Shown: piece by piece, positions 13,392 through 50,670 of the stretch
How positions within the stretch are numbered: the first letter of the stretch is position 1
Layout: each line of letters begins with the position of its first letter
Origin: an uncultured Eubacteriales bacterium
GTDB taxonomy: Bacteria > Bacillota > Clostridia > Christensenellales > Aristaeellaceae
Direction of reading: 5' to 3'
DNA length: 64,000 nt
Assembly (NCBI GenBank): GCA_902800625.1
Contig: CADCFG010000010.1
Coordinates: 1-64,000, forward strand
Notes under the pieces: generated by a model
The model's database searches: none
Told to the model about the DNA's origin: nothing
What the model saw: the letters and a program-made list of their open reading frames with translations, nothing else
Position numbers and translations under genes: made by a program

Positions 13392-13670
13392 TGTTAAGTC
13401 CTCCAATATCTCGCTGTTCAGATGCGTGAATCCTCTCGCTGGAGATGGAGCGGTTCCCATTCAGCGACAGGACACAGAGAGGCCCGCCTGCCGTCTGCAC
13501 CGAACGAGTAAAAATGCGCATAATGATGCCAGTCGCATCGCTGTGCGATGTAACAGCCAGCGCTCTTTCGTCCATAGCAAAGGCTGGCAACTGCATTGCG
13601 ACGGCCTGCGTCGGCGCGGGCGTTGTCATTCTTCTTCTATCGGATGCTGATCAACAGGCGCTGGTTTTGC

Positions 13671-13967: not shown

Positions 13968-13984
13968 GTTCGTTTCCTCCTAAA

Positions 13985-30943: not shown

Positions 30944-31193
30944 GTTAATCCCCTTCACGTCCTTTCGGGTTTCCATGTCTTGGGAATGAAACGCGCTGCC
31001 ATACGGTGGCACCAATACTCCCATACTATAAAATCCCTTTATATTATACCACATCGCTTCGATTCTGACATCCCCCTTCCAAGGGATATTTGAAAAAATA
31101 TGCCTGAAGCCCCGCTCCGGCACCAGGTTGCGGCATATTCGTAACCAGATGATGGCAAACCCGTGAAATCTGAGCCTGCAAGGGCCAATTCGC

Positions 31194-31224
31194 TTGACAA
31201 ACCGGCTGCCGCATATAGTATAAT
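31194..31224 (+). promoter_or_regulatory. Promoter of the peptide-export operon
   Basis: A perfect TTGACA (31194-31199) and perfect TATAAT (31219-31224), with a long 19-bp spacer. The long spacer is typical of promoters that depend on an activator or DNA twisting for full strength. Confidence 0.55.
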
Positions 31225-31237
31225 CAGGATTGGGAAT

Positions 31238-31266
31238 TGTCACGCGTGAGTGTGACAGTTCTGTGA
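31238..31266 (+). promoter_or_regulatory. Candidate operator: inverted repeat and copy 2 of the shared 17-mer
   Basis: TGTCAC (31238-31243) and GTGACA (31252-31257) form an inverted repeat, and GTGTGACAGTTCTGTGA (31250-31266) is the same 17-mer as at 26661-26677. It lies just downstream of the predicted transcription start, a position suited to repression or to a leader RNA structure. Confidence 0.4.
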
Positions 31267-31337
31267 TAAAAGGCATGATACAATATGCCCGTAACCAAGC
31301 AAAACCAGTCGACAACATAAAAATGGAGGGTATGAAA

Positions 31338-31631
31338 ATGAGCAACGAGATCAACGAGCTGAACCTGGAAGAGCTGGAGGAAGTCACGGGCGGCAAGAAG
31401 AAGGATGACGTGCATGACCTGAAGAACTTTGTCACCGCGAAGGTGAGCGTCCCCAAGGGTACCTACCTGGTAATGCAGAAGACCGCGGGCGGCGCGTTCA
31501 TGTCCATCAAGTACAAGGACGGCGACAGCATCAAGGTCAACCAGAACTTCCTGGAGAAGGGCTATCTGCTGGCCTACTCCCCCGCCAAGGACAAGTACGG
31601 CTACGTGGACGCCAAGTACGTGCGCTTCTGA
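31338..31631 (+). CDS. Double-glycine-leader secreted protein with SH3-like cargo
   Basis: A 97-residue precursor. Residues 1-19, MSNEINELNLEELEEVTGG, are a typical leader for C39-peptidase exporters: acidic, with the conserved Leu/Glu pattern (LNLEELEEVTGG) and cleavage after Gly-Gly. The predicted released cargo of 78 residues starts KKKDD. It has alternating strands VTAKVSVPKGTYLVM and SIKYKDGDSIKV and ends GYVDAKYVRF, resembling bacterial SH3-type wall- or peptide-binding domains. It contains no Cys and few Ser/Thr, so it is not a lanthipeptide or thiopeptide substrate. The start follows GGAGGG at seven bases. It is first in the export operon. Function may be bacteriocin, adhesin or signal; undetermined. 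Confidence 0.75.
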   Translation: MSNEINELNLEELEEVTGGKKKDDVHDLKNFVTAKVSVPKGTYLVMQKTAGGAFMSIKYKDGDSIKVNQNFLEKGYLLAYSPAKDKYGYVDAKYVRF

Positions 31632-31729
31632 GATGATCGGAAGGCCGCCACGGTCGAACGCGTATCCATGCTTTTGATCCGGTTGCGGCGTCCAAAAGCC
31701 AAACAAACATACTCACCCAAGGCCAATGC

Positions 31730-31753
31730 GTGGCGGGGCTGGTGCCTCGCCAC
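31730..31753 (+). other. Intercistronic hairpin after the precursor gene
   Basis: GTGGCGGGGC and GCCTCGCCAC pair over 10 bp (one G-U) around a TGGT loop. There is no T tract. It may stabilise the upstream message or attenuate, so that the precursor is made in excess over the exporter. Confidence 0.45.
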
Positions 31754-31807
31754 ATGTTGGCGTTAAAAGGAAAAACTGTTTTCTATCATATCATTGGAGG
31801 CAGATCC

Positions 31808-32239
31808 ATGCAGAGCCAGCTGTTCAGGAAAAAGAGCGTGGAGCCCATTTCGTCCCCGGAGCAATTGCAGGATTACATGCGGGTGGCCAGTCCTGGCATC
31901 TGGATGGTGCTGGCAGCGGTGATCGTGCTGCTGGCCGGGCTGTTGGTGGCTTCGGCGCTGGTGAAGGTGGAGACGACAATATCCGCGAAAGGAGTCCTTG
32001 ACGAAGCGGGCACCACCATCGTGATGAAACTAACGACCCGGGCAGGCGAGGACGTGCGCGAGGGCATGACCGTGCGCGTGGGCGGTCGGAGCGGCCGCGT
32101 GGACTACGCATACCAGGGCGGCAGCATCGTGAATGTCACCGCCTCGCTGGACAATTCCGGCGAGGCGCTGCCCGCGGGCGTTTACGATGTGCAAATCGTC
32201 ACCGAAACCCTGAGCCCCATCAGCTTCCTGCTGAACTGA
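31808..32239 (+). CDS. Short HlyD/NHLM-type secretion membrane protein
   Basis: A 143-residue protein. The N-terminus QLFRKKSVEPISSPEQLQDYMRVASPG followed by a single membrane helix (about 31-53) matches the start of HlyD-like proteins in NHLM bacteriocin export systems. Such proteins normally run to several hundred residues with a coiled-coil arm and a beta-barrel domain. Here only about 90 extracytoplasmic residues follow, with beta-rich character (VEGMTVRVGG-like turn at 84-93, then VNVTASLDNSGEALPAGVYDVQIV). It therefore looks like a reduced adaptor suited to a single-membrane cell. The start is set by GGAGG. It is seven codons-worth of sequence before the exporter gene, in a tight operon. 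Confidence 0.7.
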   Translation: MQSQLFRKKSVEPISSPEQLQDYMRVASPGIWMVLAAVIVLLAGLLVASALVKVETTISAKGVLDEAGTTIVMKLTTRAGEDVREGMTVRVGGRSGRVDYAYQGGSIVNVTASLDNSGEALPAGVYDVQIVTETLSPISFLLN

Positions 32240-32254
32240 CGGGAGGTGCGACGC

Positions 32255-34435
32255 TTGCCTTCCGTTAAGGTCAAACAGCCCCTCAGTCGGGGCGTGGCAC
32301 GGGTGCCCGTGGTCATGCAGATGGAAGCGCTGGAGTGCGGTGCGGCCTGCCTGGCCATGGTGATGGCCTGGTACCAGAAGTGGGTGCCGCTGGAGGTCGT
32401 GCGCGTGGACTGCGGCGTGTCCCGGGACGGCTCCAACGCCAAGAACATCATGCTGGCCGCGAAGCACCACGGCTTCGAGGTGCACGGCTATCGGATGGAG
32501 CTGGATGCACTGAAAGAAAACGCCACCTTTCCCTGCATCATCCACTGGGAATTCGACCACTTCGTAGTGTTGGATGGCTTCAGTGGCGGAAAAGCAGTGC
32601 TGAATGATCCGGCCCGGGGCATCGTGAAGGTGCCCATGGAGCAGTTTGACCGTGCCTTCACAGGCATCGTCATCACATTCAAGCCCTCCGCTGATTTCGT
32701 TCCCTCCGGCAAGCGCAAGAGCACGCTGGCCTTTGCCCGCAGGCGCCTGCACGGCGCAGGCGCGGCGGCGACCTTCGTGGCGCTGACCACCGTCATATCC
32801 TACCTGTTCGAGGTCATCAACCCGGCCATGTCCCGGGTATTCTTCGACCGGCTGCTGACCGGCCGCAACCCGGATTGGCTGCGCCCCTTCATCGGTTTGA
32901 TGGCGCTTTTGTGCGCGGTTCAGCTGATCGTGGAATGGACCCGAACGGTCTATTCCCTGAAGATCAACGGAAAGCTGGCCGTGGTGGGCAGCACTTCCTT
33001 CATGTGGAAGGTGCTGGGCCTGCCCATGGACTTCTTCTCCCAGCGCATGGCAGGCGACATCCTGCAGCGGCAGAGCACCAACGCCACCATCGCAGGCGCC
33101 CTGGTTCAGACCATCGCGCCGCTGCTGTTGAACACCGTCATGATGGTGTTCTATCTGGTGCTGATGCTGCGGCACAGCCTGGCGATGACCCTGATCGGCC
33201 TCATCTCCATCGCCGCGAACCTGCTGGTGGCCCAGTATATCTCCGTGCGCCGGATCAACCTGACGCGGGTCCAGGCACGGGACGAGGGCAAGCTGGCGTC
33301 AGCGACGCTGGCGGGCATCAGCATGACCGAGACCATCAAGGCAAGCGGCGCGGAAAACGGCTTCTTCCGCAAGTGGGCGGGCTATCAGGCCTCCGTAAAC
33401 GCCCAGTCGGTGAAATATGCGCGCATGAACGCCCGGGTAGGGCTGATCCCGTCTCTGATCAACACCACTGCCAATTACCTGGTGCTGTTCGCGGGCGTGC
33501 GGCTGGCCATGGACGGCCACTTTACCCTGGGCGCCATCGCGCTGTTCCAGGGCCTTTTGAGTGCCTTCACCGGCCCGGCCCAGACATTGATCGGCGCCAG
33601 CCAGACCATTCAGGAGATGCGCACGCAGATGGAGCGGGTGGAGGACGTGCTGCAATACCCCTCGGATCCCAACGTACGCTTTGATGCCATCGGCGAGGAC
33701 ATAGACTGTGCCAAGCTGAGGGGCAATGTGGAATTGAAGCACGTCACCTTCGGCTACTCCCGCCTGGGCAAACCCGTCATCTCCGACTTTTCCCTGAACA
33801 TCCGCTCCGGCGAGCGCGTGGCAATCGTGGGCGCCAGCGGCTGCGGCAAGTCCACGCTGTCCAAGCTGATCTCCGGCCTCTACCGGCCCTGGGAGGGCGA
33901 GATCCTGTTTGACGGCAGGCCCGTGTCCGACATCCCCCGCCCCGTGTTCACCGGTTCCCTGGCCGTGGTGGATCAGGATATCATACTCTTTGAGGACACC
34001 ATTGCCAACAACATCCGCATGTGGGATAACTCCATCGAGGACTACGAGGTAATCCTCGCGGCCCGGGACGCCCAGATCCACGACGACATCCTTCAACGCC
34101 CCGGCGGCTATCAGAACCGCCTGACCGAGAACGGGCGTGACCTGTCCGGCGGCCAGCGGCAGCGGCTGGAGATCGCCCGGGTGCTGGCCCAGGACCCCTC
34201 CATCATCATACTGGACGAGGCCACCAGCGCCCTGGACGCCAAGACTGAATTCGACGTGGTGAAGGCCATCCAGGACCGGGGCATCACAACCATCGTCATC
34301 GCCCACCGCCTGTCCACCATCCGCGACTGCGACCATATCATCGTGCTGGACAAGGGCGTGGTGGTGGAGAGCGGGACGCACGAGGAGCTGTTTGCCCTCG
34401 GCGGCGTTTATGCGAAGCTGGTCACCAGCGACTGA
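32255..34435 (+). CDS. NHLM-type peptidase-containing ABC exporter (C39 leader peptidase, permease, ATPase)
   Basis: A 726-residue exporter. The C39 domain (1-140) has the catalytic Cys28 in MQMEALECGAACLAM, oxyanion Gln22, His102 in HWEFDHFVVLDGF and Asp118 in LNDPARG. All are intact, so it should remove double-glycine leaders. A six-helix membrane domain follows (about 160-450). The ATPase (about 480-726) has Walker A GASGCGKST, signature LSGGQRQRLEIAR and Walker B IIILDEATSALD. Family members export peptides whose leaders end in Gly-Gly, matching the precursor encoded at the start of the operon. The start is taken as TTG at 32255, seven bases after GGGAGGT; GTG at 32246 overlaps that ribosome site and is less likely. 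Confidence 0.92.
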   Translation: MPSVKVKQPLSRGVARVPVVMQMEALECGAACLAMVMAWYQKWVPLEVVRVDCGVSRDGSNAKNIMLAAKHHGFEVHGYRMELDALKENATFPCIIHWEFDHFVVLDGFSGGKAVLNDPARGIVKVPMEQFDRAFTGIVITFKPSADFVPSGKRKSTLAFARRRLHGAGAAATFVALTTVISYLFEVINPAMSRVFFDRLLTGRNPDWLRPFIGLMALLCAVQLIVEWTRTVYSLKINGKLAVVGSTSFMWKVLGLPMDFFSQRMAGDILQRQSTNATIAGALVQTIAPLLLNTVMMVFYLVLMLRHSLAMTLIGLISIAANLLVAQYISVRRINLTRVQARDEGKLASATLAGISMTETIKASGAENGFFRKWAGYQASVNAQSVKYARMNARVGLIPSLINTTANYLVLFAGVRLAMDGHFTLGAIALFQGLLSAFTGPAQTLIGASQTIQEMRTQMERVEDVLQYPSDPNVRFDAIGEDIDCAKLRGNVELKHVTFGYSRLGKPVISDFSLNIRSGERVAIVGASGCGKSTLSKLISGLYRPWEGEILFDGRPVSDIPRPVFTGSLAVVDQDIILFEDTIANNIRMWDNSIEDYEVILAARDAQIHDDILQRPGGYQNRLTENGRDLSGGQRQRLEIARVLAQDPSIIILDEATSALDAKTEFDVVKAIQDRGITTIVIAHRLSTIRDCDHIIVLDKGVVVESGTHEELFALGGVYAKLVTSD

Positions 34436-34452
34436 GAAAGGAGGCGCTCTGA

Positions 34453-36645
34453 ATGGGTTGGTTTGACGAACAGATCAGACAACGGATACAACACGACGAA
34501 AACACCTTCGAGGACGCCTTCGAGCAGGTGGCAGCGTCAGTGCTGGGCAGCCGTACGGCGGCGCGCCTCAAGGACGAGCGCCTGGTCGCCCGGGAGGCGC
34601 TGGACGAGATTCTGAAATACTATCACAAGAAGCCCGTGGATATACCGGAGGACATCACGGACGTGAACGACCAGCTGGAGTACGCGCTGCGGCCCCTGGG
34701 CATGATGACCCGGGACGTGGAGCTGACGGAGGGCTGGTACAGGGACGCCTACGGGCCGATGCTGGGCTTCCTGAAGGACAGCGGCGCGGCGGTGGCCCTG
34801 CTGCCGGGAGCGCTGAGCGGCTACACCTTCCGCGACCCGGCCACCGGCGAACGGGTGCGGGTGAATCGCAGGACGGCGAAGCGGCTGGAGCTGGAGGCTC
34901 TGTGCTTCTACCAGCCCCTGCCCATGAAAAAGCTGGGCATCCCGGATCTGTTGCTGTACATGAAGAAGTGCGTCTCCGCCGGGGACATCGCCCTGATCGT
35001 GCTGTCCATGCTGGCTGTGACGCTGGTGGGGCTGATCGAGCCGAGGGTCTACCAGGCCATCACCGGGCCGGTGCTCAAGAGCAAGAGCGCGTCCATGCTC
35101 ATCGGCATGGCGGTGTTCCTGTTGTGCGCCGCGGTGGCATCGGAGCTGATCAACGTGGTCAGCGACCTGCTGACAGAGCGGCTCACCACCAAGACATCGC
35201 TGGCGGTGGAGTCTGCCGTGATGATGCGCATACTCTCCCTGCCGGTCAGCTTCTTCCGGCAGTTCGCCTCCGGAGAGCTGTCCAGCCACGCGGACTCGGT
35301 GGGCTCGCTGTGCGACATGATGCTCAGCAGCGTGATGTCCATCGGGCTGACCAGCCTGCTGTCGCTGATCTACATCGGCGAGATCTTCCGCTTTGCGCCG
35401 CTGCTGGTTTGGCCGTCCATACTCATCATCATCGTCACCGTGAGCGTGAGCCTGGCCGTCTCCCTTGCCCAGATCGGCATCACCCGAAGGAAGATGAAGC
35501 TGGCCGCCCAGGAGAGCGGCATGAGCTACGCCATGGTCAGCGGCATCCAGAAGATCAAGCTGTCCGGCTCGGAAAAGCGCGCCTTCGCCCGCTGGGCGCG
35601 GCTCTACGCCCAGAATACAGAGCTGGAGTACAATCCCCCGACCTTCATCAAGCTGAGCAGCGTGATCACGCTGGGCATCTCCCTGGTTGGCAACATCGCA
35701 CTGTACTACCTGTCTGTGCGCTCCGGCGTCGATCCCAGCCAGTACTACGGCTTCACCGCCGCCTACGGCCGTGTGATGGGCGCGTTCACCGCCCTGGCCG
35801 GCATCGCCATATCCGCCGCGTCCATACGCCCGATCCTTGAGATGGCGGAGCCGATCCTGAAGACCGAGCCAGAGATCACTGCGAATAAGGAGCAGGCGCG
35901 GCAGGTGTCCGGCAGTATCGAACTGAGCCACGTCACCTTCCGCTACGAGCCGGACACTCCCGACGTGCTCACCGACCTGTCGCTGAAGATCAAAGCCGGA
36001 GAATACGTGGCCATCGTTGGGCGCACCGGCTGCGGCAAGTCCACTCTGGTGAGGCTGCTGCTGGGGTTTGAAAAGCCCCAGCGGGGCTCGGTGCTTTACG
36101 ACGGCCGGGACCTGGCGGGCATCGACCCCCGCTCCCTGCGCCGGAACATGGGCGTGGTCATCCAGAATGGCCAGCTGATGCAGGGCGACATATTCTCCAA
36201 CATCACGCTTTCAGCGCCTTGGCTGACGGTGGACGCAGCCTGGGAGGCAGCCGAGACAGCGGGCATCGCCGACGACATAAGGGATATGCCCATGGGCATG
36301 CAGACCATGATCTCCGAGGGCCAGGGCGGCATCTCCGGCGGGCAGAAGCAGCGGCTTCTGATCGCCCGGGCCATCGCCCCCAAGCCCCGCATACTGATCC
36401 TGGACGAGGCCACCAGCGCGCTGGACAACGTGACCCAGAAGCAGGTGTCCGAGGCGCTGGATCGGCTGAAATGCACCCGCGTCGTCATCGCCCACCGGCT
36501 GTCCACCATCCGCAACTGCGACCGCATCCTGGTGATGGACAGGGGCGCGATCATCGAGGACGGCACCTACGATCAGTTGATCGCAAAGAAAGGCGCGTTT
36601 GCCGACCTGGTCGCCCGCCAGCGGCTGGACGCGGGAGAGAACTGA
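34453..36645 (+). CDS. Second NHLM-type ABC transporter (permease-ATPase)
   Basis: A 730-residue half transporter. The first 165 residues are a soluble cytoplasmic region with no C39 catalytic Cys, as in the partner ABC proteins of NHLM systems, though shorter than usual. Six membrane helices follow (about 175-460). The ATPase has Walker A GRTGCGKST, signature ISGGQKQRLLIAR and Walker B ILILDEATSALD, so it can hydrolyse ATP. In NHLM loci this protein probably pairs with the C39-bearing half to make a heterodimer. AAAGGAGG lies before the ATG and the gap from the first exporter gene is only 17 bp. Confidence 0.88.
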   Translation: MGWFDEQIRQRIQHDENTFEDAFEQVAASVLGSRTAARLKDERLVAREALDEILKYYHKKPVDIPEDITDVNDQLEYALRPLGMMTRDVELTEGWYRDAYGPMLGFLKDSGAAVALLPGALSGYTFRDPATGERVRVNRRTAKRLELEALCFYQPLPMKKLGIPDLLLYMKKCVSAGDIALIVLSMLAVTLVGLIEPRVYQAITGPVLKSKSASMLIGMAVFLLCAAVASELINVVSDLLTERLTTKTSLAVESAVMMRILSLPVSFFRQFASGELSSHADSVGSLCDMMLSSVMSIGLTSLLSLIYIGEIFRFAPLLVWPSILIIIVTVSVSLAVSLAQIGITRRKMKLAAQESGMSYAMVSGIQKIKLSGSEKRAFARWARLYAQNTELEYNPPTFIKLSSVITLGISLVGNIALYYLSVRSGVDPSQYYGFTAAYGRVMGAFTALAGIAISAASIRPILEMAEPILKTEPEITANKEQARQVSGSIELSHVTFRYEPDTPDVLTDLSLKIKAGEYVAIVGRTGCGKSTLVRLLLGFEKPQRGSVLYDGRDLAGIDPRSLRRNMGVVIQNGQLMQGDIFSNITLSAPWLTVDAAWEAAETAGIADDIRDMPMGMQTMISEGQGGISGGQKQRLLIARAIAPKPRILILDEATSALDNVTQKQVSEALDRLKCTRVVIAHRLSTIRNCDRILVMDRGAIIEDGTYDQLIAKKGAFADLVARQRLDAGEN

Positions 36646-37158: not shown

Positions 37159-37967
37159 CCATACTGTTGCTGGAACGGGACGCCGGCGTGCTTCACAGGC
37201 TTCAGAAGCTGGTCGCATCGCTGCGCCCGGAGGCGGAGCTGCTCGCCTTCACGGACAGCCCGTCCGCCCTTGCCGCGGCGAGGAAGAAGGAGATCGATGC
37301 GGCGTTTCTCTCGGCAGCCATGCCGGAGCTGAGCGGCCTGGATCTGGGCCGTTACCTGAAGGACATGTACCCGCAGGTGAACCTGATCTTCCTGTCGGAC
37401 GGCGCGGATCACGCCATGAGCGCCCTCTCGCTGCACGCCAGCGGCTATGTGCTTCGTCCCGCGGAGGAAGGCGCCCTGCGGATGGAGCTGGACGACCTGC
37501 GCCACCCCGCGCCGCAGGAATCCGGCAAGCGGGTATTCGCCCAGACCTTTGGCAACTTCGAGCTGTTCGTGGACGGCCAGCCCGTGGCCTTCAAGTACAC
37601 CCGCACGAAGGAGATCGTGGCGCTGCTGGTGAACAACCGGGGCGCGCAGACCACCAACGGCGAGATCATCGCCGCGCTGTGGGAGGACGACGGCGACCCT
37701 GAGAAGAAGGCCTCTTACCTGAGCAACCTGCGCCAGGATCTGCAAAACACCATGACAAAGCTCAAGCTGAGCGGCATCATCGTCAAGCAGCGGGGCAGCC
37801 TGGGCATCGCGGCGGACAGGATCGAGTGCGACCTTTACGACTGGCTGGCCAAAAAGAAAGCGTCCAGATACCAATACCTGGGCGATTATATGAACCAGTA
37901 CAGCTGGGCGGAGACGCTGCACGCCGAGCTGGACGAGATTAACTGGGCGATGGAGGACGGGGATTAA
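37155..37967 (+). CDS. Response-regulator-like transcription factor with degenerate receiver
   Basis: A 270-residue protein. Residues 1-120 have the receiver fold: acidic ERD near the start, LSDG, and a Pro after VLR near the C-terminus. The phospho-acceptor position in DAAFLSAAMPELSG is Ser53 instead of Asp, so ordinary phosphorylation is not expected. Residues about 130-225 form a winged-helix domain (GNFELFVDGQPVAFKYTRTKEIVALLVNN, then EIIAALWEDD and SNLRQDLQNTM) like those of BTAD/SARP-type and OmpR-like regulators. It is last in the export operon and likely controls it, possibly through the direct repeat upstream. GTG start, coupled to the preceding gene. Confidence 0.8.
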   Translation: MTILLLERDAGVLHRLQKLVASLRPEAELLAFTDSPSALAAARKKEIDAAFLSAAMPELSGLDLGRYLKDMYPQVNLIFLSDGADHAMSALSLHASGYVLRPAEEGALRMELDDLRHPAPQESGKRVFAQTFGNFELFVDGQPVAFKYTRTKEIVALLVNNRGAQTTNGEIIAALWEDDGDPEKKASYLSNLRQDLQNTMTKLKLSGIIVKQRGSLGIAADRIECDLYDWLAKKKASRYQYLGDYMNQYSWAETLHAELDEINWAMEDGD

Positions 37968-37990
37968 ATCCCCGTCCTCCATCTTTTTTC
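37949..37990 (+). terminator. Terminator of the export operon with the stop codon in its loop
   Basis: A perfect 16-bp stem (37949-37964 with 37968-37983) encloses a 3-base loop TAA, which is the stop codon of the regulator gene. It is followed by TTTTTT (37984-37989). The left arm is coding sequence. Confidence 0.92.
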
Positions 37991-38033: not shown

Positions 38034-41000
38034 TCAGCCCTTTTGGCCGATGCGCTCCGTCAGGAAGCGGTCGAACTGCTCCGGCGGCACGGGCCTGGAG
38101 AAGTAGTAGCCCTGCACATAATCGCAGCCCAGCTCCCGCAGGGCAAGGTACTGTTCCTCGGTCTCCACACCTTCTGCCACCACTGGAACGTTCAGGTACT
38201 TGGCGATGTCGATGATCAGTTCGATCATGCGCACGTCCTTCTTCTCGCCAAAGGCGCTGCGCACAAAGCTCATATCCAGCTTCAACACATCAATGGGCAG
38301 GTTGGACAGCATGCCCAGGGACGAATAGCCGGCGCCGAAATCGTCCATTTCGATGCGGAAGCCCATGCCCACGCTGCGCAGCTCCCGGGCCATCAGGATC
38401 ACCTGGTCGGAATCGCCGGTGTAGGCCGACTCCGTGATCTCCAGTATCAGGTCCTCCGCCTGCAGCCGGTTGCTTTCCAGGATGTCCGTGAAGATGCTCT
38501 TCAGGTTGGGCGTGAGCATATCGATGCGGGACACGTTCACCGACACCGGGATGGATAAGCCGAAGCGGTCCTTCCAGGCGCGGATCTGGGCGGCCGTCGT
38601 GCGCCAGACGAACTCGTCCAGCTGCAGGATCAAGCCGTTGTCCTCCAGCAGCGGAATGAACACGCCGGGGCTGATCAGGCCCAGCTCGGGATGGTCCCAG
38701 CGCACCAGCGCCTCCGCGCCGGAGAGCACGGGCGTTTCGCCGCGGATGTCGAACTTCGGCTGAAAGTACACCTTGAAGCAGTTGTCCTTCAGCGAGGTGC
38801 GGAAGTCCTCCAGCAGGTGCTCGCGGAACAGGTCGGCCTTGTGCATCTCGTCGTCGTAGATGCCCACGGCCTTCAGGTGCCCGGACCTGACGGTGTTGGC
38901 CGCCGTGCGGGCGTAGTCGAAACGGCGTTCGATCTCCAGCGTCTTGTCCACGTTCATATAGACGCCCATGCGCAGCCGCACGCGGTTCGCCGCGCCTTCC
39001 TCGCCGCCCACATCCTCGGCAATGCGGTCCAGCAGCGCCTCGTAATTCTCCTTGTGGGGGCCGTAGATGAAGAAGATGTCCGCGCTCCTGCGGCAGGCGA
39101 CGGCGCCGATGTCCCTGGAAACTTGGCGGATGCGGTCGCCGACGCGGCTCAGCACGCCGTCGCCGTACTGCTTGCCATAGCGCTCGTTGATCATGTGGAA
39201 GTGGCTGATGTCCACCACCATGGCATCCATGGGCATGTCGGTGTAGTGCTGGTCATAGAGGCGCACATAGCGCAGGAAGTAATCCAGGTTCAAGAGCTTC
39301 GTCAAGCTGTCGCGCTCGGTGGAATGAATGATGTTCCGCTTCTCGGAAAGCTCGATGCAGCGGTTGGCCCGGGCGCGCACGATCTCCCAGGAGGGATAGG
39401 GCTTGGGAATAAAGTCCATAGCGCCCAGCTTCAGGCACTCCACCTCGGCGCTCTGGTCCGCCGTCAGCACGATGAACGGAATGTCCTTCAGCTCCGGAGC
39501 CTCCCGCATGACCTTAAGGACTTCCATGCCGGTCATGCCGGGCATCTGTAGATCCAGCATCACCAGGGCCAGCTCATCCTTGTGTGTCTTCATCTGCTCC
39601 AGCGCCTCGGAGCCGTCGGAGGCGTACAGCAGGTCGTAGGCGTCCTCAAGCATGTTGCCCAGCATCATCAGGTTGACGGCCTCGTCCTCCACGATCAGCA
39701 CGTGGCGCTTTAAGTGCATGACCTCAGACTCGTCCACCATGGGGATGATGGCTTTTGCCTCCTCCTCGAAGCTGTCGCGGGTAGCGGCACCCAGGCTCTT
39801 GAGCAGCTGTTTCTCCTCATACATCAGCCCGTCGGCGCGCTCAAACACGGCGTGATAGTCCCTGTCCTCGCCCGCCCTGTATTCCGACAGTCCGCCGGAG
39901 ACCACCACGCCGCCGCTTCCAATGTTGACCACGGAGCGGTCGTGCAGCGCCAGCAGCAGTTCCTTTCGGATGACGAAGTCCCGACCCGTGAGAATGACCA
40001 CGAATTCATCTCCGCCGATGCGATAGACAGGGCTATGCTGGAAGATATCGCAGATCATCTCAAAAGCCTTGCGGATATACTCGTCGCCCGCTTTGTGGCC
40101 AAGGGTGTCGTTGATCTTTTTCAATCCGTTCACGTCGCAGACCACCACTGCAAATTTCTCGGCGGTCCCTGCGTCGATCTTTTCGTCGATCTCCTTCTCC
40201 CGCTGCAGATAGGCATGCTTGCTCTTCGCGCCGGTCATGGGGTCCTTGAAGGCGGTCTCCCGGGCGGCGTCGCGCTCCTCCACCGCCTTGGATTCCCACT
40301 TCTGCATGGACAGGTGGTTGATCAGCATCGCGGCAAGAGCCATGATGAACAGGCCCGATATCAGCAGCGAATTCATGGCGTTGGTCCGGTGGACCTGGTT
40401 GATCTGGCTCTGCATGAAGGCATCTTCCGACGCCTGTCCGGCATAGTGCTCCTGCACGGCGTAGATGGCATCGTTGGTGGTCCGCTCGTCCACTCGACCG
40501 GACCAGATCATCGCCATGAACACCACCAGCGCCAGCAGCGCGATCCACACGATGATGGCCTTGCCGAAGCGGCGGGCATTGTCCTTGCGGATGATGCGGC
40601 GGAAGTAGAAGAAGCCGATCACCGTCCAGACCATGAACAGTATGTAGGTCTCTGTCGCCAGCATGTCGTCGCCAAAGAGGCTTGGGAACAGAAGGTATAC
40701 GCTGAACGCCAGCATCACGGCCAGACCGACGACTCCCGTGACAGCCTCCCGGCGGTGCTTCTGCTGCCTGGCAACCTTCAGCGCCGCAGCGGACACGAAG
40801 CCATAGAGCATCGTGGCGCCCAGGGTGGTCACGTCCACGATCCAGCCGATGGCCGTCCTGCCGATAAACGGAATCAGGCAGCTGAATCCCGCGACAAGCA
40901 GCATGGCGTTGGCGGGGATGTGCTTGTCGTTCAGTACAGCTATGCGCCCCGGCAGGATGCCATCCCGGGCCGTGGCGAAGAACAGGCGGCTCAGCGCGCG

Positions 41001-41972
41001 CAGGTTGCCGATCAGGCTGGTGAGCACCAGAGACAACAGCGAAGCCATCAGTGCCGCCACGCCGAAGTCGCCCAGGTAGTAATGGGCGGCATAGAACGCG
41101 GGCAGGCCCTCGATGCCGGAGTAGCTGTCCAGGTTGCGTATGTACTCCAGCCAGCTGGAGCAATCCGCGGGATAGGCCGAGATGCTCAGCAGTGTGACGA
41201 ACACATAGATGGCGGTGGAGGTCAGCACCGAGATCACCAGGATCCTGTGCAATCGGTCCCTTTTGAAGTTGAATTCCTCCGCCGAATGGGTGATGCTCTC
41301 AAAGCCGATGAAGGCCCAGGGCGATATGAAGGCGATTTGAAGCGTCTGGGAGAAGGCGCTCCTGTCCGGCAGGAAGGCCGGCGTCCAGCTGACCTTGAGC
41401 CCCGCCGCGGCCACGGCAAAGCACAGCGTGATGCCCAGGGTGAACACGGTCACCAGCAATACCATCATCTGCGCGGACAACCGGTTGCTTCGGACGCAGA
41501 GCGCCGTCACCGCCGCGATGGCCCCAAGGGTCAGCAGGGCCTCGCCCAGGTACACCTCATAGCCGAATACCGTTAACAGGTAGCCAAACTTGAACGTGTC
41601 CCCGATGAAGAACCGGGCAAACAGCGGCAGGCTGGTGGCGTTTGCCCAGAACATGGCGATGTAAGTCAGGCTTAAAAACCAAAACACCAGGAAGGCGCGG
41701 TCGTAACCGAACACCTCCTTGGTGTAGTCATATATTCCGCCCGAACTGGGATACCGATCGGCCATGTAATAGAAATTCCGGCAGATGACCAGCATCACCG
41801 CCATGCCGATGAGCAGGCCGAAGATGCTGCCGAGGGGGCCGGCCTGGGCCAGATAGGTATTGCTGGTGACCACCAGCGAACCCCAGCCGACGCTGGTACC
41901 CACCGCCAGGGCCCAAACCGAGGCCGGCGAGAGACTGGGCCTCAGGCCCGTATTCTGATTCTGTTCCGACAT
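38034..41972 (-). CDS. APC-type amino-acid permease fused to GGDEF-REC-GGDEF-EAL
   Basis: A 1312-residue membrane protein. Residues about 15-440 form an APC-superfamily amino-acid permease of 11-12 helices (SVGWGSLVVTSNTYLAQAGPLGS, GGIYDYTKEVFGYD, WAFIGFESITHSAEEF). Two more helices and a loop follow, then an intact GGDEF domain with CDVNGLKKIND and RIGGDEFVV. Next comes a receiver with VMLDLQMPG, then a second cyclase domain whose motif has decayed to SADIF. The last 250 residues are an EAL phosphodiesterase domain with EALVRWDHPE, DDFGAGYSSL and VAEGVETEEQ. It should make or break c-di-GMP in response to a ligand and to phosphorylation. It is last of a five-gene operon. Confidence 0.85.
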   Translation of the reverse strand: MSEQNQNTGLRPSLSPASVWALAVGTSVGWGSLVVTSNTYLAQAGPLGSIFGLLIGMAVMLVICRNFYYMADRYPSSGGIYDYTKEVFGYDRAFLVFWFLSLTYIAMFWANATSLPLFARFFIGDTFKFGYLLTVFGYEVYLGEALLTLGAIAAVTALCVRSNRLSAQMMVLLVTVFTLGITLCFAVAAAGLKVSWTPAFLPDRSAFSQTLQIAFISPWAFIGFESITHSAEEFNFKRDRLHRILVISVLTSTAIYVFVTLLSISAYPADCSSWLEYIRNLDSYSGIEGLPAFYAAHYYLGDFGVAALMASLLSLVLTSLIGNLRALSRLFFATARDGILPGRIAVLNDKHIPANAMLLVAGFSCLIPFIGRTAIGWIVDVTTLGATMLYGFVSAAALKVARQQKHRREAVTGVVGLAVMLAFSVYLLFPSLFGDDMLATETYILFMVWTVIGFFYFRRIIRKDNARRFGKAIIVWIALLALVVFMAMIWSGRVDERTTNDAIYAVQEHYAGQASEDAFMQSQINQVHRTNAMNSLLISGLFIMALAAMLINHLSMQKWESKAVEERDAARETAFKDPMTGAKSKHAYLQREKEIDEKIDAGTAEKFAVVVCDVNGLKKINDTLGHKAGDEYIRKAFEMICDIFQHSPVYRIGGDEFVVILTGRDFVIRKELLLALHDRSVVNIGSGGVVVSGGLSEYRAGEDRDYHAVFERADGLMYEEKQLLKSLGAATRDSFEEEAKAIIPMVDESEVMHLKRHVLIVEDEAVNLMMLGNMLEDAYDLLYASDGSEALEQMKTHKDELALVMLDLQMPGMTGMEVLKVMREAPELKDIPFIVLTADQSAEVECLKLGAMDFIPKPYPSWEIVRARANRCIELSEKRNIIHSTERDSLTKLLNLDYFLRYVRLYDQHYTDMPMDAMVVDISHFHMINERYGKQYGDGVLSRVGDRIRQVSRDIGAVACRRSADIFFIYGPHKENYEALLDRIAEDVGGEEGAANRVRLRMGVYMNVDKTLEIERRFDYARTAANTVRSGHLKAVGIYDDEMHKADLFREHLLEDFRTSLKDNCFKVYFQPKFDIRGETPVLSGAEALVRWDHPELGLISPGVFIPLLEDNGLILQLDEFVWRTTAAQIRAWKDRFGLSIPVSVNVSRIDMLTPNLKSIFTDILESNRLQAEDLILEITESAYTGDSDQVILMARELRSVGMGFRIEMDDFGAGYSSLGMLSNLPIDVLKLDMSFVRSAFGEKKDVRMIELIIDIAKYLNVPVVAEGVETEEQYLALRELGCDYVQGYYFSRPVPPEQFDRFLTERIGQKG

Positions 41973-42121
41973 TGGCAGCGCTCCCCTTCCCATTACATGA
42001 GGCTGTTGATCGTCCTTGCCTTGTCCCATCCTCTCACAGTATACGCGTTTCAACTGCTTCTTGCCCGGCGCATCCGCGGGCCACGCGTTCCGACAGATTC
42101 CGCCAGTGCCAATGCTCCCGC

Positions 42122-45460
<3,339 letters not shown>

Positions 45461-45501
45461 GGGATGAATCATGCTCCTTTCGCCGGAAGCCAGGCGTTGG
45501 T

Positions 45502-45870
45502 TCAATTCTGTTCGTATTGGTGGACGCCCTCTACCGCCCTGCGATACAGCGCCTTGATCTCATCCAGCTTTTCCTTCACCTGGTCGTCCGTCATGGTGCG
45601 CGGGTTGCCCGGTCGGAACTCCTCGGCGATATCCGACGCCAGGTCGGACAGCTTCTTCAGGCCCAGGTTGCCGCACATACCCTTGGACGCGTGGGCCGCG
45701 TCGAACATCTGCGCGGGATCCATGGCCTCGCCCGCCGCGATCAGCTGCTCCACCACGCTGCCTTTCGTCAGCTTGCGGATGTGCTTGTCCATCAGCTTTT
45801 CCACGCGCAGCACCCGCAGCGCTTGGTCGTAATCGCCGCCGATGATCTCATACAATTCCTTAAGCGTCAT
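45502..45870 (-). CDS. HPt-domain phosphotransfer protein
   Basis: A 122-residue helical protein. The block DAAHASKGMCGNLGL carries the phospho-accepting His of Hpt domains, followed by the expected second helix of the four-helix bundle. It would shuttle phosphate between the receivers of the hybrid kinases and those of the GGDEF-EAL proteins in the same operon. GGGGATAGACC precedes the ATG at 45870; a TTG one codon upstream is an alternative. It lies only a few bases after the REC-GGDEF-EAL gene. Confidence 0.85.
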   Translation of the reverse strand: MTLKELYEIIGGDYDQALRVLRVEKLMDKHIRKLTKGSVVEQLIAAGEAMDPAQMFDAAHASKGMCGNLGLKKLSDLASDIAEEFRPGNPRTMTDDQVKEKLDEIKALYRRAVEGVHQYEQN

Positions 45871-45876
45871 CAAGGT

Positions 45877-47571
45877 CTATCCCCTTTCAACGTTCATTTC
45901 CCGCTCGATCAGCGCCTCGAAGGCCTCGGCCGGCAGCGGCCGGGAGAAATAGTAGCCCTGCACCAGATCGCAGTCGGCGTCCTTCAGCAGATTCAGCTGG
46001 CCCGCGGTTTCCACGCCCTCGGCCACCACCCGCAGCTTCAAATACCGGGCGATGTCCAGGATCAGCTTCACCAGCCGCATATCCGTGGCGCTGGATTCGA
46101 TGTTGCGCACGAACTTCATGTCCATCTTCAATACGTCCAGCGGCATGCCCGAGAGCATGTTCAGCGACGAATAGCCGCTTCCGAAGTCGTCCATCTCGAT
46201 CTCAAAGCCCAGCTGACGCAGATCGCGCACCGTCTCCAGCAGCTCGCCGGCGTTCTCGGTGTAGGCGGATTCCGTGATTTCCAGCTTCATGTCCTTGAAA
46301 TCCAGGCCGTTCTCCTCGATGATCCGGGCCAGCCGATCCACCAGCGTGGGGTCGAACACGTCCGCCCGGGACAGGTTCACGGATACCGGCAGCTTTATGC
46401 CGTACTTGTCGCGCCAGCGCACGATCTGCTGTGCCGCCTCCTGCCAGACATAGCTGTCCACCACGCTGATCAGGCCGTTGCCCTCGAACAGCGGCACGAA
46501 GTCGCCGGGTGAAATCATGCCCAGTTCCGGGTGGTTCCAGCGAATCAGCGCCTCCGCGCTGCTCAGCCGGGGCGGATCGCACTGGATGTCGTACTTGGGC
46601 TGGTAGTAGACGGTGAGCTGCCGCTCCTCCACCGCGCTCCTCAGGTCATTCAGCAGCCGCTGGTTCAGAAGCTCCCGCTTGCGCATGTCCTCGTCGTAGA
46701 TCTTCAGCGGGTTCTGGTAGTCGCCCCGGGCCATGTTGCAGGCCGCACGGGCGCAGTCGAACAGGAACGTCGGGTCCGCCCCCTCCTGCCAGGGCTTCAC
46801 GCCCATGCGCAGGTGCACGCTGACGTTGGGGGAAATGCCGTTGACCCTGCTCTGGAACCGATCCAGCAATGCCTGGTAATCTTCCTGCGGGGCGCAGTAA
46901 AAGGCGAAGCGATCCCCCTCGAAGCGGGTGGCGATGCCCTGGCTCTCCGACAGGAACGCGCGGATCTCCGCGCCGATCACGCGGATCAAATCGTCGCCGA
47001 ACTCCCGTCCGTTGACGGCGTTGATGGTGTGGAACTGCTCGATGTTCATCACCACGGCGTCCAGTTTGAGTCCCGGCGTGTAGTGGAACAGCCTGTGAGC
47101 GTATTCAAAGAAGAAGTTGCGGCTGTAGAGCATGGTGAGCCGGTCGTGCTCGGCGGCGGAGATCAGCTGGCGGCCCTCGCTGAGCTCGATGATCCTGGCC
47201 ACGCGGGCGGTAATCACCTCGGGCACATCGAAGGGCTTGGTGATGAAGTCGGACGCGCCCAGCTGCAGGGCCTTCAGTTCCGCTTTCTTTTCCGCGGTCA
47301 GCACGATGACGGGAATGTGGTTCAGGTGCTCGTCGGCATTCACCCGCTTCAGCACCTCAAAGCCGTCCATCACAGGCATCATCAGGTCCAGCAGCACCAC
47401 GGAGAGGCTGTCCACGTGGCTTTCGATGGCCTCGAGGGCCTGCGCGCCGTTTTCGGCATATATGATTTCATAGTCGTCCTCCAGGATCACGCCCAGCGCG
47501 TCCCGGTTGATCTCCTGGTCGTCCACCACCAGGATCAGCTTTGGCTTTTGTATCTGCTTGGATTGGATCAT
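45877..47571 (-). CDS. REC-GGDEF-EAL protein (c-di-GMP phosphodiesterase candidate)
   Basis: A 564-residue soluble protein. The receiver (about 10-130) has its Asp in VVLLDLMMPVMDG and Lys in FITKPFD. A cyclase-like domain (about 150-290) has lost the GGDEF motif, reading FEGDRFAFY, so it is probably not catalytic and may bind GTP. The EAL domain (about 310-560) keeps EALIRWNHPE, the Asn in VNLSRADVF, ITESAYTE, DDFGSGYSSL and VAEGVETAGQ, so c-di-GMP hydrolysis is likely. Phosphorylation by a kinase of the same operon should control it. It starts 6 bp after the end of the hybrid kinase gene. The domain order is the same as the C-terminal part of the permease fusion at 38034. Confidence 0.88.
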   Translation of the reverse strand: MIQSKQIQKPKLILVVDDQEINRDALGVILEDDYEIIYAENGAQALEAIESHVDSLSVVLLDLMMPVMDGFEVLKRVNADEHLNHIPVIVLTAEKKAELKALQLGASDFITKPFDVPEVITARVARIIELSEGRQLISAAEHDRLTMLYSRNFFFEYAHRLFHYTPGLKLDAVVMNIEQFHTINAVNGREFGDDLIRVIGAEIRAFLSESQGIATRFEGDRFAFYCAPQEDYQALLDRFQSRVNGISPNVSVHLRMGVKPWQEGADPTFLFDCARAACNMARGDYQNPLKIYDEDMRKRELLNQRLLNDLRSAVEERQLTVYYQPKYDIQCDPPRLSSAEALIRWNHPELGMISPGDFVPLFEGNGLISVVDSYVWQEAAQQIVRWRDKYGIKLPVSVNLSRADVFDPTLVDRLARIIEENGLDFKDMKLEITESAYTENAGELLETVRDLRQLGFEIEMDDFGSGYSSLNMLSGMPLDVLKMDMKFVRNIESSATDMRLVKLILDIARYLKLRVVAEGVETAGQLNLLKDADCDLVQGYYFSRPLPAEAFEALIEREMNVERG

Positions 47572-47577
47572 AGGATA

Positions 47578-49092
47578 TCAATCCTCTTTTCCCTTGCCAT
47601 TGTTTATCCATTTGCCCAGCGCGGCATAGAGCTTGTCCGCGTCCACGGGCTTGACCAGGTGGTCGTTCATGCCCGCCTGCAGGGAGTTCTGCACGTCGCT
47701 CTCGTAGGCGTTCGCCGTCAGGGCGATGATGGGCACCTTTTTCGCGTCGGAGCGGTCCAGCGCGCGGATGCGCCGCGCCGCCTCCATGCCGTCCATCACC
47801 GGCATACGCAGATCCATCAGGATCGCGTCATAGTAATCCATTTCGGACGCCGCCACCCGGTCCACGGCGGCCTGCCCGTTGTCGGCGGTATCGCAGGCCA
47901 CATCCTCCAGCTCCAGCAGGTCGGAGACGATCTCGACATTCCCGGCCATGTCGTCCACCACCAGCACGCGCCGCCCAGCAAGGCATGTGGACGGAGTTTC
48001 TTCCGGACCGACCGCTTCGTTTTCAAGCGTCTCGACATTCCCGCTGTCCTCCGAAACGGACCGACGCATCGGCAGGGCGATGGTGAAGGTGGAGCCCTCG
48101 CCCTTGCGGCTATCGATCCCGATCGTGCCGCCCATGTGGGTTACGAAGGCTTTGGCCACCGGCAGGCCGATGCCGCTGCCGCCGAAGCGGTTGGTGAAGC
48201 TGGCGTCCTCCTGGGCGAAGGCCTCGAAGATCCTGGGCAGGAAGGCCTCGTCGATGCCCACGCCGGTGTCCGAGACGATGAAGCGCATATCGACGACGCC
48301 ATCCCTCGCCTCCGTGGATTCCACGTCAAACTGCACCGTTCCCGGGGCGTCGGTGAATTTCACGGCGTTGTCCAGCAGGCACATCAGCGCCTGCTTCAAT
48401 CGCGCGGCGTCACCGGTATACTCTCCCCGGGCAGCCTCGGCGAAATGGCTCTGATAGGTCAGCCCTTTCTCCTCGCACATCGCGCCGGCGAGGACGTCGA
48501 CCTGCTCCATCGCCTCTCTGAGCGAAAAGGGCTCGCTGTGAATCACCAGCTCGCCGCTCTCGATCTGCTGCATGTCCAGCATGCCGTTGATCAGATCGGA
48601 CAGGTGATGGGCGCTGGCGCCGATCTTTTCCAGGTGCTGCCGGGTCTCTCCGTGCAGGTCTGGGTTTTTCAGTGCCAGGGTGTTCTGCCCAAGGATCACG
48701 TTCATGGGCGTGCGCATCTCGTGGCTGACGGTGGCCAGAAAGCTGGCCTTGACGCGGTTGCTCTGTTCGGCGGCCAGCAGCTCCGCCTCCAGGTGCTCGA
48801 CCTCAAACACCTTTTGGATGATGGAGCTGATCAGGCGAACCATTACGAACACGAATATGCTGCCGCCGAAGAGTATCCCTGCGACCAGGAGATCCGGCCT
48901 TCCGAAGAAGCCCACCATCAGATAGCCCAGCAGGAAGGAGACGAGCAGCGCGATGGGAATATCGAGGATGCGGCTGCCCCAGCGCCACAGCTTCATGCCG
49001 CGAATGTAGCGGGCAAACCGAACAAAGCCGATGATGTTGTAGACCATCAGCGCGCTTCCCAGGTACACCATGGCGTATATGGCCCAGGTCAT
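47578..49092 (-). CDS. Membrane hybrid histidine kinase with C-terminal receiver
   Basis: A 504-residue protein. Three or four membrane helices (about 5-100) carry no obvious external sensor domain. A short coiled coil leads to the dimerisation domain with the phospho-His in FLATVSHEMRTPMN. The HATPase has DNAVKFTD, DTGVGIDE and GGSGIGLPVAK. The receiver (about 380-495) has its Asp in AILMDLRMPVMDG. The start is set nine bases after GGGGGGAGGG; an ATG three codons upstream abuts that site. It is first in the five-gene signalling operon and lacks the permease module found in the paralogous kinase. Confidence 0.88.
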   Translation of the reverse strand: MTWAIYAMVYLGSALMVYNIIGFVRFARYIRGMKLWRWGSRILDIPIALLVSFLLGYLMVGFFGRPDLLVAGILFGGSIFVFVMVRLISSIIQKVFEVEHLEAELLAAEQSNRVKASFLATVSHEMRTPMNVILGQNTLALKNPDLHGETRQHLEKIGASAHHLSDLINGMLDMQQIESGELVIHSEPFSLREAMEQVDVLAGAMCEEKGLTYQSHFAEAARGEYTGDAARLKQALMCLLDNAVKFTDAPGTVQFDVESTEARDGVVDMRFIVSDTGVGIDEAFLPRIFEAFAQEDASFTNRFGGSGIGLPVAKAFVTHMGGTIGIDSRKGEGSTFTIALPMRRSVSEDSGNVETLENEAVGPEETPSTCLAGRRVLVVDDMAGNVEIVSDLLELEDVACDTADNGQAAVDRVAASEMDYYDAILMDLRMPVMDGMEAARRIRALDRSDAKKVPIIALTANAYESDVQNSLQAGMNDHLVKPVDADKLYAALGKWINNGKGKED

Positions 49093-49398: not shown

Positions 49399-50670
49399 AT
49401 GAACACGATACTGTTGATCGCGGAAAGCCCCTCGATCTTGGAATACTTCACAGAGGCGCTCTCCCCTTGCTTTTCCTTGCGCTGCGCGTGCACCGAGGAA
49501 GAGGGCTTGCGCGCCTTCGACGGGGACGGTCGGGGCGTGGACGCCGTGCTGATCGAGCTGGCCCTGGCCCGAAGGAACCGCTTTGCCTTCGAACCCGGTT
49601 TCAGGAAGCGCGCCTCCTTTTCAGCGACCCCCATGATCGCCATATCCACCGCGCTGCCCACGCAGGAGGACATGGACTGCATCGAAAACGGGTTTTATGA
49701 CCTGATCCCCGTGCAAGCGCCTCCGGAGCTGATCCGGAAGCGGATCGACAACGCCATCAGCGCCAGCGACTCCCTGTCCTTCTCCCAGCTGGAGAAGATG
49801 CTCAAGCAGCTGCCTGCCTGCGTCTTCCTGAAGGACAAGGATTGCCGCTATGTCTTCTCCACCCAGTACTGGCGCCACATCAACACCGGCGGCGACCCGA
49901 ACTGGACCATTCGCGGAAAGACCGACCTGGACATCCGCAGGGATCGGGTTAACGCCCTGAAGGCGCTGGCGGCCGACCAGCATATCCTGGAGACCGGCGA
50001 GGGCACCGATTACGTCATCGAGGAGAATGAGGACGGCATCCGGGAATACCTGCAGCTGATCAAGCGGCCCGTGTACGACGACGAAGGCAACGTCAACGGG
50101 ATCATCGCGCTGATCAACAACATCACAGACTACCAGCTTCTGAAGATGGAATTGGAAAAGCGCGCCAAAACGGACGCGCTGACCGGGCTTCTGAACAAGC
50201 AGGCCGCCCAGGACCTTGCGCATATGCTGCTCTCTTCCTCCAAGAACAGGGAGGAGCGCTGTGCGCTTCTGATGATCGATGTGGACCTGTTCAAGCAGGT
50301 GAACGACCGCTTCGGCCACGCCGAGGGCGACCGGGCGCTGGCGGAGGTGGGGCGGATCATCAGCAACAATTGCCGGGGCATGGACGTGGCCGGCCGGATC
50401 GGCGGCGACGAGTTCATGGTGTTCATGCACGGCATCGACGCCACCGAAAACGCGCTGCAGCTGGGCGCGCGCCTGTCCGCGCAGGTGGAACACGCCTTCC
50501 GGGGCGACAGACTGGAAGGCCAGGTTTCGCTGTCCATCGGCGCAGCCGTATCCCCCGACCACGGCAGCGATTTCGACGCCCTGTTCAAATCCGCCGACAC
50601 CGCTCTGTATGAAGTAAAGAAGAACGGCAGGAACGCAGTGAGAATGTACGCGCAGGGTAACGAAGCGTGA
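49399..50670 (+). CDS. Diguanylate cyclase with degenerate receiver and PAS domain
   Basis: A 423-residue soluble protein. Residues 1-120 have receiver-like character, but the Asp position in DAVLIELALARR is Glu, which could mimic the phosphorylated state. A PAS domain follows (about 130-250; LPACVFLKDKDCRYVFSTQYWR, then RPVYDDEGNVNGIIALINNITDY). The GGDEF domain (about 260-420) is intact, with DALTGLLNKQ, MIDVDLFKQVNDRFGHAEGD and RIGGDEFMVF. It should synthesise c-di-GMP in response to a PAS ligand. It is divergent from the c-di-GMP operon, so both probably act on the same pool. Confidence 0.88.
   Translation: MNTILLIAESPSILEYFTEALSPCFSLRCACTEEEGLRAFDGDGRGVDAVLIELALARRNRFAFEPGFRKRASFSATPMIAISTALPTQEDMDCIENGFYDLIPVQAPPELIRKRIDNAISASDSLSFSQLEKMLKQLPACVFLKDKDCRYVFSTQYWRHINTGGDPNWTIRGKTDLDIRRDRVNALKALAADQHILETGEGTDYVIEENEDGIREYLQLIKRPVYDDEGNVNGIIALINNITDYQLLKMELEKRAKTDALTGLLNKQAAQDLAHMLLSSSKNREERCALLMIDVDLFKQVNDRFGHAEGDRALAEVGRIISNNCRGMDVAGRIGGDEFMVFMHGIDATENALQLGARLSAQVEHAFRGDRLEGQVSLSIGAAVSPDHGSDFDALFKSADTALYEVKKNGRNAVRMYAQGNEA

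Follow-up and report, generated by a model that had tools for sequence, protein, structure and literature searches.

Several described signalling proteins join a transporter, or a membrane domain related to one, to an enzymatic output. CbrA and CrbS are transporter kinases of the SSS family with a STAC linker (PMC7918813). CbrA transports histidine while bearing its kinase (PMC7096432) and has been termed a rare transceptor (PMC13022988). In Ks-Amt5, an Amt transporter has become a sensor kinase and no longer transports (PMC5764959). The true transporter-domain fusions in this literature feed kinases; GGDEF or EAL outputs, as well as histidine kinases (HKs), are carried by the 5TMR receptors, which have a transporter-related fold (PMC11109136). 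Here we describe a five-gene cluster in a 64,000-nucleotide stretch of DNA (the window) from contig CADCFG010000010.1 of an uncultured, gut-type Eubacteriales bacterium. Two of its proteins begin with an APC permease domain followed by a pair of extra transmembrane (TM) helices, the TM hairpin. In the gene 4 product (P0002) these lead into an HK with two receiver (REC) domains, and in the gene 5 product (P0001) into GGDEF, REC, a degenerate GGDEF (GGDEF*) and EAL. Gene 1 (P0005) encodes a hybrid kinase (HK-REC), gene 2 (P0004) a REC-GGDEF*-EAL protein and gene 3 (P0003) a histidine phosphotransfer (HPt) protein.

We propose that this cluster is a two-input switch for cyclic di-GMP (c-di-GMP) built on transporter-shaped receptors, in which ligand gates a cyclase and a kinase, and an HPt relay gates the phosphodiesterases. 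We judge this reading fairly probable, and the cluster would probably let a small external molecule set the c-di-GMP level. The APC module of genes 4 and 5 would bind a small solute, and its change between open and closed forms would be passed to the TM hairpin with its short outside stalk. The second hairpin helix would continue into the cytoplasm and re-set the kinase dimer in gene 4 or the GGDEF dimer in gene 5. Kinases 1 and 4 would phosphorylate their own REC domains, and phosphate would pass from these to the HPt protein and on to two REC domains, one in gene 2 and one in the second half of gene 5, where it would set the EAL phosphodiesterases of both proteins. Gene 5 would then unite two enzymes in a single chain, a cyclase gated by ligand and a phosphodiesterase gated by phosphorylation. 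We infer ligand binding, signal passage through the hairpin, the direction of phosphate flow, the sign of control and enzyme activity.

The proposed receptor module and its recurrence

The permease parts of both proteins belong to the APC superfamily (AA_permease_2, Pfam E 1.2e-31 and 1.5e-20), with a 12-TM LeuT-type fold. In fold searches, the model of the gene-5 module (568 aa, pLDDT 81, pTM 0.83) resembled AdiC, LAT, CAT and GkApcT structures across residues 1-462. The best Foldseek match was AdiC (3ob6, E 1e-12), the VIA fold comparison returned y+LAT1 (8xyj, Z 37.3 over 420 residues, rmsd 3.0), and the closest solved relatives by sequence were GkApcT (6f34 and 5oqt, E ~4e-15). An earlier, sequence-only reading of the window had called the permease at the start of these two proteins complete, and the extent of the fold matches bears this out. 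NCBIfam matches of the fused proteins (BcaP, TIGR00909) were far under cut-offs, and we rejected assignment of the module to a named transporter family.

Past TM12, the gene-5 model places helices at 466-503 and 509-567 (module numbering). Hydropathy puts TM13 and TM14 of P0001 at residues 499-517 and 560-578, with 42 residues between. Second-look fold-search matches ended at residue 462, before the hairpin, and Pfam gave no match on the hairpin stretch. In the model of the gene-4 module and kinase core (813 aa, pLDDT 83, pTM 0.67), one helix (517-607, module numbering) runs from the outside stalk through TM14 into the helix bearing the invariant phospho-His H590. Because this helix is unbroken in the model, a rigid link from receptor to output is plausible.

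Alignment A1 (18 rows) showed W12, G17, G21-W22-G23, W101-A-N-x-T, a TM6 stretch W-A-[FY]-x-G-F-E and GR-x-A-x-x-WIVDVT to be invariant, at 38-82% identity to the window row. This conservation bears on whether the module only anchors the protein in the membrane, or senses the condition of the membrane (ion gradient, turgor), with REC domains alone setting the outputs. Gradient or turgor sensing has been proposed for SSS-domain kinases (PMC7918813), and no ligand is known for the APC module. The APC-GGDEF form of the fusion has no REC of its own, so an anchor would fit gene 5 better than that form. However, the residues of TM1, TM3, TM6 and GRxAxxWIVDVT are invariant although identity to the window row is no more than 38-53% in 15 of the 17 others, and the module is retained while the output changes, which a mere anchor would not need. 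We regard this explanation as quite improbable.

We observed the fusions throughout related genomes. In the window's own genus, 18 of 28 genomes matched gene 5 from residue 56 or earlier to residue 1334 or later; 16 of these were free of in-frame stops and two (G086, G146) had stops. In one such relative (L047, G086 contig 63) an in-frame stop lies at ~8052, within the APC part, and an APC-GGDEF gene adjoins. Across the own-family draw, 33 of 150 genomes matched the permease part (E up to 1e-3) and 117 did not; the match lay within an open frame >650 aa in 19 of the 150 (hand count). Open frames >700 aa with a module match were found in 7 of 391 genomes of the class draw (E up to 1e-60), 3 of 297 of the order draw and 4 of 398 of the phylum draw (both E up to 1e-90), own genome included in each. 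In family f15, 7 of 70 genomes had any match (E up to 1e-90). The low counts in the wider draws show the design to be uncommon beyond certain lineages.

When named genomes were scanned with alignment A1, at least 559 confirmed relatives were obtained, of which the best 80 loci were analysed. Most of the records are metagenome-assembled genomes (MAGs); a rumen or gut site appears in many of the titles, and the taxon names given are uncertain. These 80 loci held 85 open reading frames (ORFs) with an APC domain: 47 APC-hairpin-GGDEF-REC-GGDEF*-EAL (4 at a contig end), 29 APC-hairpin-GGDEF, 3 APC-hairpin-HK-REC-REC and 1 APC-HK-REC. The remaining 5, in which the profile set recognised no output, were three HD-GYP fusions (L110, L124 and L125, the last from Ruminococcus sp. 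YE71) and two split frames (L071, L137).

Two findings had been named beforehand as fatal to the sequence-only reading: that sequencing or assembly had joined a permease gene to a separate kinase gene, and that the fusion is absent from all related genomes. The window does come from a 64-contig draft genome. However, relatives in other genomes, 77-84% identical, carry the same open frame, and 51 distinct ORFs carry the whole gene-5 domain string, one of them (L128) on a 3.86-Mb contig of an isolate, whose title is Lachnospiraceae bacterium AC2029. For the design as such, an artefactual join of permease to kinase or cyclase is refuted, and we give it practically no weight; absence in relatives likewise does not hold.

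The module has also changed its output. On a tree of 120 modules (135 before near-copies were removed), the first output domain required 6 changes among 87 GGDEF, 23 HK and 6 HD-GYP rows. Output labels were hand-corrected (three rows set to HD-GYP, two split frames reassigned) and 4 output-less rows were left out. A single clade of all kinase-type rows was rejected (p-AU 3e-51), for a group picked after inspection of the tree. APC modules joined to HD-GYP-type domains occurred in L110, L124, L125, L145, L147 and L153, with Pfam HD_5 matched in L124, L125 and L147. Somewhat short of an even chance, in our estimate, is the full statement that APC-plus-hairpin modules make up a general class of receptor in gut and rumen Bacillota, exchangeable among kinase, cyclase, cyclase-phosphodiesterase and HD-GYP outputs, and that gene 5 combines ligand-gated c-di-GMP synthesis with relay-gated breakdown, the relay being ligand-gated through gene 4.

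Other arrangements were seen. The third fusion of the window's genome (L001 5695-8568, contig 7, 108.7 kb) is APC-hairpin-HK-REC, directly followed by a HisKA-HATPase-REC-REC protein; its module groups with GGDEF-type modules with moderate support (80-90). On contig 5 of the same genome (L061 7294-9006), a 571-aa APC protein has two more hydrophobic stretches, no output domain and a VDVTT motif changed to MELTS, and is divergent from an 807-aa degenerate-GGDEF-EAL gene. Neighbouring APC-kinase pairs of 815-848 aa occur in family f114 (L142, L143), with HisKA weak or unrecognised in some.

Probable phosphorelay core and predicted c-di-GMP enzymes

On the tree, the gene-4 module fell within a clade of 10 kinase-type rows (SH-aLRT 95; quick tree). 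All 10 loci carry HK-REC, REC-GGDEF*-EAL and HPt genes upstream, in the same order and on the same strand. These core loci are the window, L045, L051, L052, L056, L059 and L060 in its own family, L150 and L154 in f15, and L065 from a named MAG, and they span at least two families. A close relative (L043) has the same gene order, with its APC-kinase cut by the contig end. Proteins of genes 1-4 in the nine other core loci share ~45-82% identity with those of the window. The proteins that flank the set in the window recurred, in the stretches analysed, only in L043, apart from weak partial matches in L056, L060 and L150. No HPt was seen beside the module in kinase-type loci outside the clade, where several stretches stop at contig ends.

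The phospho-acceptor residues of genes 1-3 and the gene-2 EAL residues examined are kept in every homologue counted (Table 1; counts take in L043 and L103 where the gene is present). For gene 4, the His and the last REC Asp are conserved in 10/10 and the first REC Asp in 7/10, with a gap in the other three. By residue conservation, the core holds the His-Asp-His-Asp phospho-acceptor series of a multistep phosphorelay.

Two loci vary the theme. L103 (400-4715) has REC-GGDEF*-EAL and HPt genes, then an APC-GGDEF gene where the core has its APC-kinase. In L052, the place of gene 5 after the four-gene core is taken by a 599-aa degenerate-GGDEF-EAL ORF (12305-14101).

The 51 ORFs with the whole gene-5 string were aligned (4 run to a contig end, and in L047 the first helices are missing). 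The first GGDEF kept G-G-D-E in 51/51 and F in 50/51, and the D, N, G and D of the upstream motif in 51/51, which is what a diguanylate cyclase would be expected to carry. REC Asp, Thr and Lys were present in 51/51. The examined EAL residues, for which we used what we take to be the catalytic E/N/D/K positions, were kept in 49-51 of 51, the exceptions being gaps save at one K/R/V position. By these residues, genes 2 and 5 both qualify as predicted EAL phosphodiesterases.

Gene 2 and the second half of gene 5 share 45% identity. A REC-GGDEF*-EAL gene directly followed an APC-GGDEF ORF in 7 of 40 cases and lay upstream in four more; the 40 include a few contigs seen twice (L098 = L148), and distinct followers number six. 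The two halves of gene 5 are thus also found side by side as separate genes, and gene 5 has the look of a fusion of APC-GGDEF and REC-GGDEF*-EAL neighbours. Such a fusion suggests that the predicted ligand-gated cyclase and phospho-gated phosphodiesterase work as a pair.

The sequence-only reading had treated all five genes as one set in which phosphate flow through HPt sets c-di-GMP. Genes 1-4 do form a conserved core with a conserved neighbourhood and intact phosphorelay residues, but gene 5 is a looser member, and two-input wiring, with ligand acting on the cyclase and phosphate on the phosphodiesterase, is more probable than phosphate flow alone. That reading's domain orders, and the presence of the hybrid kinase, REC-GGDEF-EAL and HPt companions, were confirmed by Pfam. 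It had taken every GGDEF as an ordinary domain; the second one in P0001 and the single one in P0004 lack the GGDEF signature and are degenerate. It had also overlooked the TM hairpin.

Putative ligand site and weighing of the two-input reading

We aligned the module to GkApcT. Residues G42-T43-G44 correspond to G-W-G, F231 to the TM6 Trp and K191 to a hydrophobic position. In GkApcT (5oqt), we take T43 to be the small Ser/Thr residue of the TM1 G-x-G that receives the substrate carboxylate; K191 is presumably the TM5 lysine for proton coupling. At the Thr43 position, 119 of 120 modules have Trp and one has Phe, so the small residue of ApcT/CAT-type transporters is absent. The coupling lysine also appears to be absent, although the TM5 alignment is uncertain at ~20% identity. 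The TM6 Trp was matched by pattern in 114/120 modules, the other 6 being missed by the pattern. Among gene-5-type ORFs, TM1 GWG was present in 50/51, with one gap. Unfused permeases with the same TM1 GWG occur (L155), and the TM1 Trp therefore marks a subfamily rather than the fusion. Our default guess for the ligand is an amino acid or an amine; transport by the module is likewise a guess.

These data bear on whether the module is a true transceptor that still transports its solute, so that the outputs report flux in the manner of CbrA. The APC fold is complete across 12 helices, the TM1, TM3, TM6 and GRxAxxWIVDVT residues are mostly invariant in all 18 A1 rows, unfused relatives share the TM1 GWG, and CbrA itself is a precedent (PMC7096432). 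Against this stand the hydrophobic profile position at Lys191 and the Trp at Thr43, and the precedent of Ks-Amt5, in which transport was lost on turning sensor (PMC5764959). We consider flux sensing possible but rather unlikely.

Several observations weigh against the two-input reading. Ordinary amino-acid transport is disfavoured by the TM1 Trp and by a hydrophobic residue where the coupling Lys would be. Confidence in the hairpin is modest (pLDDT blocks 59-73 in gene 5; 48-69 near the turn in gene 4), and it was modelled as a single chain alone. Gene 5 directly follows the core in 4/10 loci only (window, L045, L051, L065), and it is therefore less closely tied to P0003 than gene 2 is. With 24 GGDEF matches in the genome, and additional hybrid kinases such as the two in L001, P0003 could serve other partners. 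A second HPt gene directly follows a REC-GGDEF*-EAL gene on contig 33 of the same genome (L162 2360-5716). PilZ gave no match in the genome (5/14 controls positive), and the c-di-GMP-I riboswitch gave no match in the genome, where controls were silent as well.

Some of this could mean that the five genes are neighbours of convenience in a loose signalling island, with the HPt protein serving kinases elsewhere. Gene 5 is often apart, and the genome has only two Hpt matches, P0003 among them, which may be hubs. However, the order of genes 1-4 is kept in 10/10 clade members of at least two families while the flanks vary. We think a chance neighbourhood improbable, and we retain the two-input switch. 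The second HPt gene, in L162, precedes an OmpR-like/BTAD transcription regulator and may belong to a sister relay.

Cluster layout and comparison with known systems

The five genes reported earlier between 38034 and 49092 are real and all lie on the minus strand (Table 1); the true first start is at 49101, 9 bases further. Pfam matched AA_permease_2 (41-473), two GGDEF stretches (best 602-749), Response_reg (785-892) and EAL (1082-1321) in P0001. P0002 matched AA_permease_2, HisKA, HATPase_c and two Response_reg; P0004 matched Response_reg, GGDEF and EAL; P0005 matched HisKA, HATPase_c and Response_reg. Genes 1-3 are spaced by 3-6 bases. With the likely ATG starts of genes 4 and 5, chosen by eye from ribosome-site-like sequence, ~29 bases separate genes 3 and 4 and ~149 bases genes 4 and 5. 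The gene 5 start near 41972 fits its relatives, whose alignments begin thereabouts. A consensus scan found no terminator-like site between genes 4 and 5, and a promoter scan of the minus strand found no site above threshold. The window gave no Rfam match at gathering threshold and no tRNA.

Table 1. Features of the cluster, with positions in the window
Feature	Position	Strand	Basis
Gene 1 (P0005), hybrid histidine kinase: N-terminal TM helices, HisKA, HATPase, REC; 507 aa	47578..49101	-	ORF and Pfam; His 11/11, REC Asp 11/11 in homologues
Gene 2 (P0004), REC, degenerate GGDEF, EAL; 564 aa; predicted phospho-gated c-di-GMP phosphodiesterase	45877..47571	-	Pfam; REC Asp and examined EAL residues 12/12
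Gene 3 (P0003), HPt phosphotransfer protein; 123 aa; frame from TTG, ATG at 45870	45502..45873	-	Pfam Hpt E 2.7e-7; motif His, Lys, Gly, Asn 12/12
Gene 4 (P0002), APC permease module, TM hairpin, HisKA, HATPase, REC, REC; 1127 aa; likely ATG 45472	42122..45505	-	Pfam; model m319f9098d6ea
Gene 5 (P0001), APC permease module, TM hairpin, GGDEF, REC, degenerate GGDEF, EAL; 1339 aa; likely ATG 41972	38034..42053	-	Pfam; model m4bec66322319
Gene 5 APC and hairpin module as modelled, first row of alignment A1	40245..41948	-	Model, fold search
Gene 4 APC, hairpin and kinase core as modelled, first row of alignment A2	42989..45427	-	Model
Strong terminator-like hairpin, 16 pairs, just past gene 5 stop; T-run on + strand	37949..37983	+	Consensus match alone

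Two further GGDEF proteins lie beside the cluster (49399-50670 and 57962-59032); the former contains PAS and its gene is divergent from gene 1. The stretch 28841-36645 resembles a peptide exporter locus: it encodes a clostripain-family peptidase and a pair of ABC proteins, one of which has a C39 peptidase domain.

We compared the cluster with described systems. Pseudomonas systems of the PvrSR/RocSAR type are wired from HK-REC through HPt to REC-EAL. The present cluster shares their hybrid kinase, HPt and REC-EAL parts, and differs in the APC permease on one kinase and on one cyclase-phosphodiesterase. To our knowledge, yeast amino-acid transceptors such as Gap1 have no fused enzyme domains; like the APC module, Gap1 is a permease-type protein that signals, an amino-acid permease in its case (named in reference titles of PMC11109136).

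The SLC5/STAC kinases (CbrA, CrbS/MxtR) also have a LeuT-fold transporter N-terminal to a kinase, with a REC in CrbS, and a proposed role in nutrient sensing (PMC7918813). They differ in being SSS proteins with 13 TM helices, STAC and PAS, whereas the present proteins have APC, 12 TM helices and a TM hairpin, and outputs that also include GGDEF, EAL and HD-GYP. Pfam searches of the cluster proteins (E up to 0.01) gave no SSF match and AA_permease families instead; the linker gave no Pfam match, in a profile set that may or may not include a STAC model. Membership of the SLC5/STAC kinases was ruled out, the transporter domain being APC and not SSS. Ks-Amt5 is likewise a transporter fold turned receptor and fused to a kinase (PMC5764959), but is an Amt fold in a trimer with kinase output only; with no Amt/Rh Pfam match at E up to 0.01, membership of the Amt-type sensor kinases was ruled out. 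The 5TMR receptors join a transporter-related membrane sensor to HK, GGDEF or EAL outputs (PMC11109136), but theirs is another membrane fold, of five TM helices by name.

Among the papers listed in a literature search, mostly the top matches of longer lists, no title or abstract start reported an APC permease fused to GGDEF, EAL or HD-GYP, and a term search of a review of c-di-GMP evolution did not find 'permease' (PMC10333796). An APC permease plugged into c-di-GMP enzymes would make transporter-to-messenger signalling directly testable: one module is found on several outputs, unfused sister permeases could serve as controls, and the phosphorelay core is conserved. A further gain would be a way into the control of c-di-GMP levels in uncultured rumen Clostridia. 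Overall, our comparison suggests that the APC family works like the known transporter-receptors but was not found to belong to any of them, and that the joining of an APC domain to c-di-GMP enzymes sets it apart.

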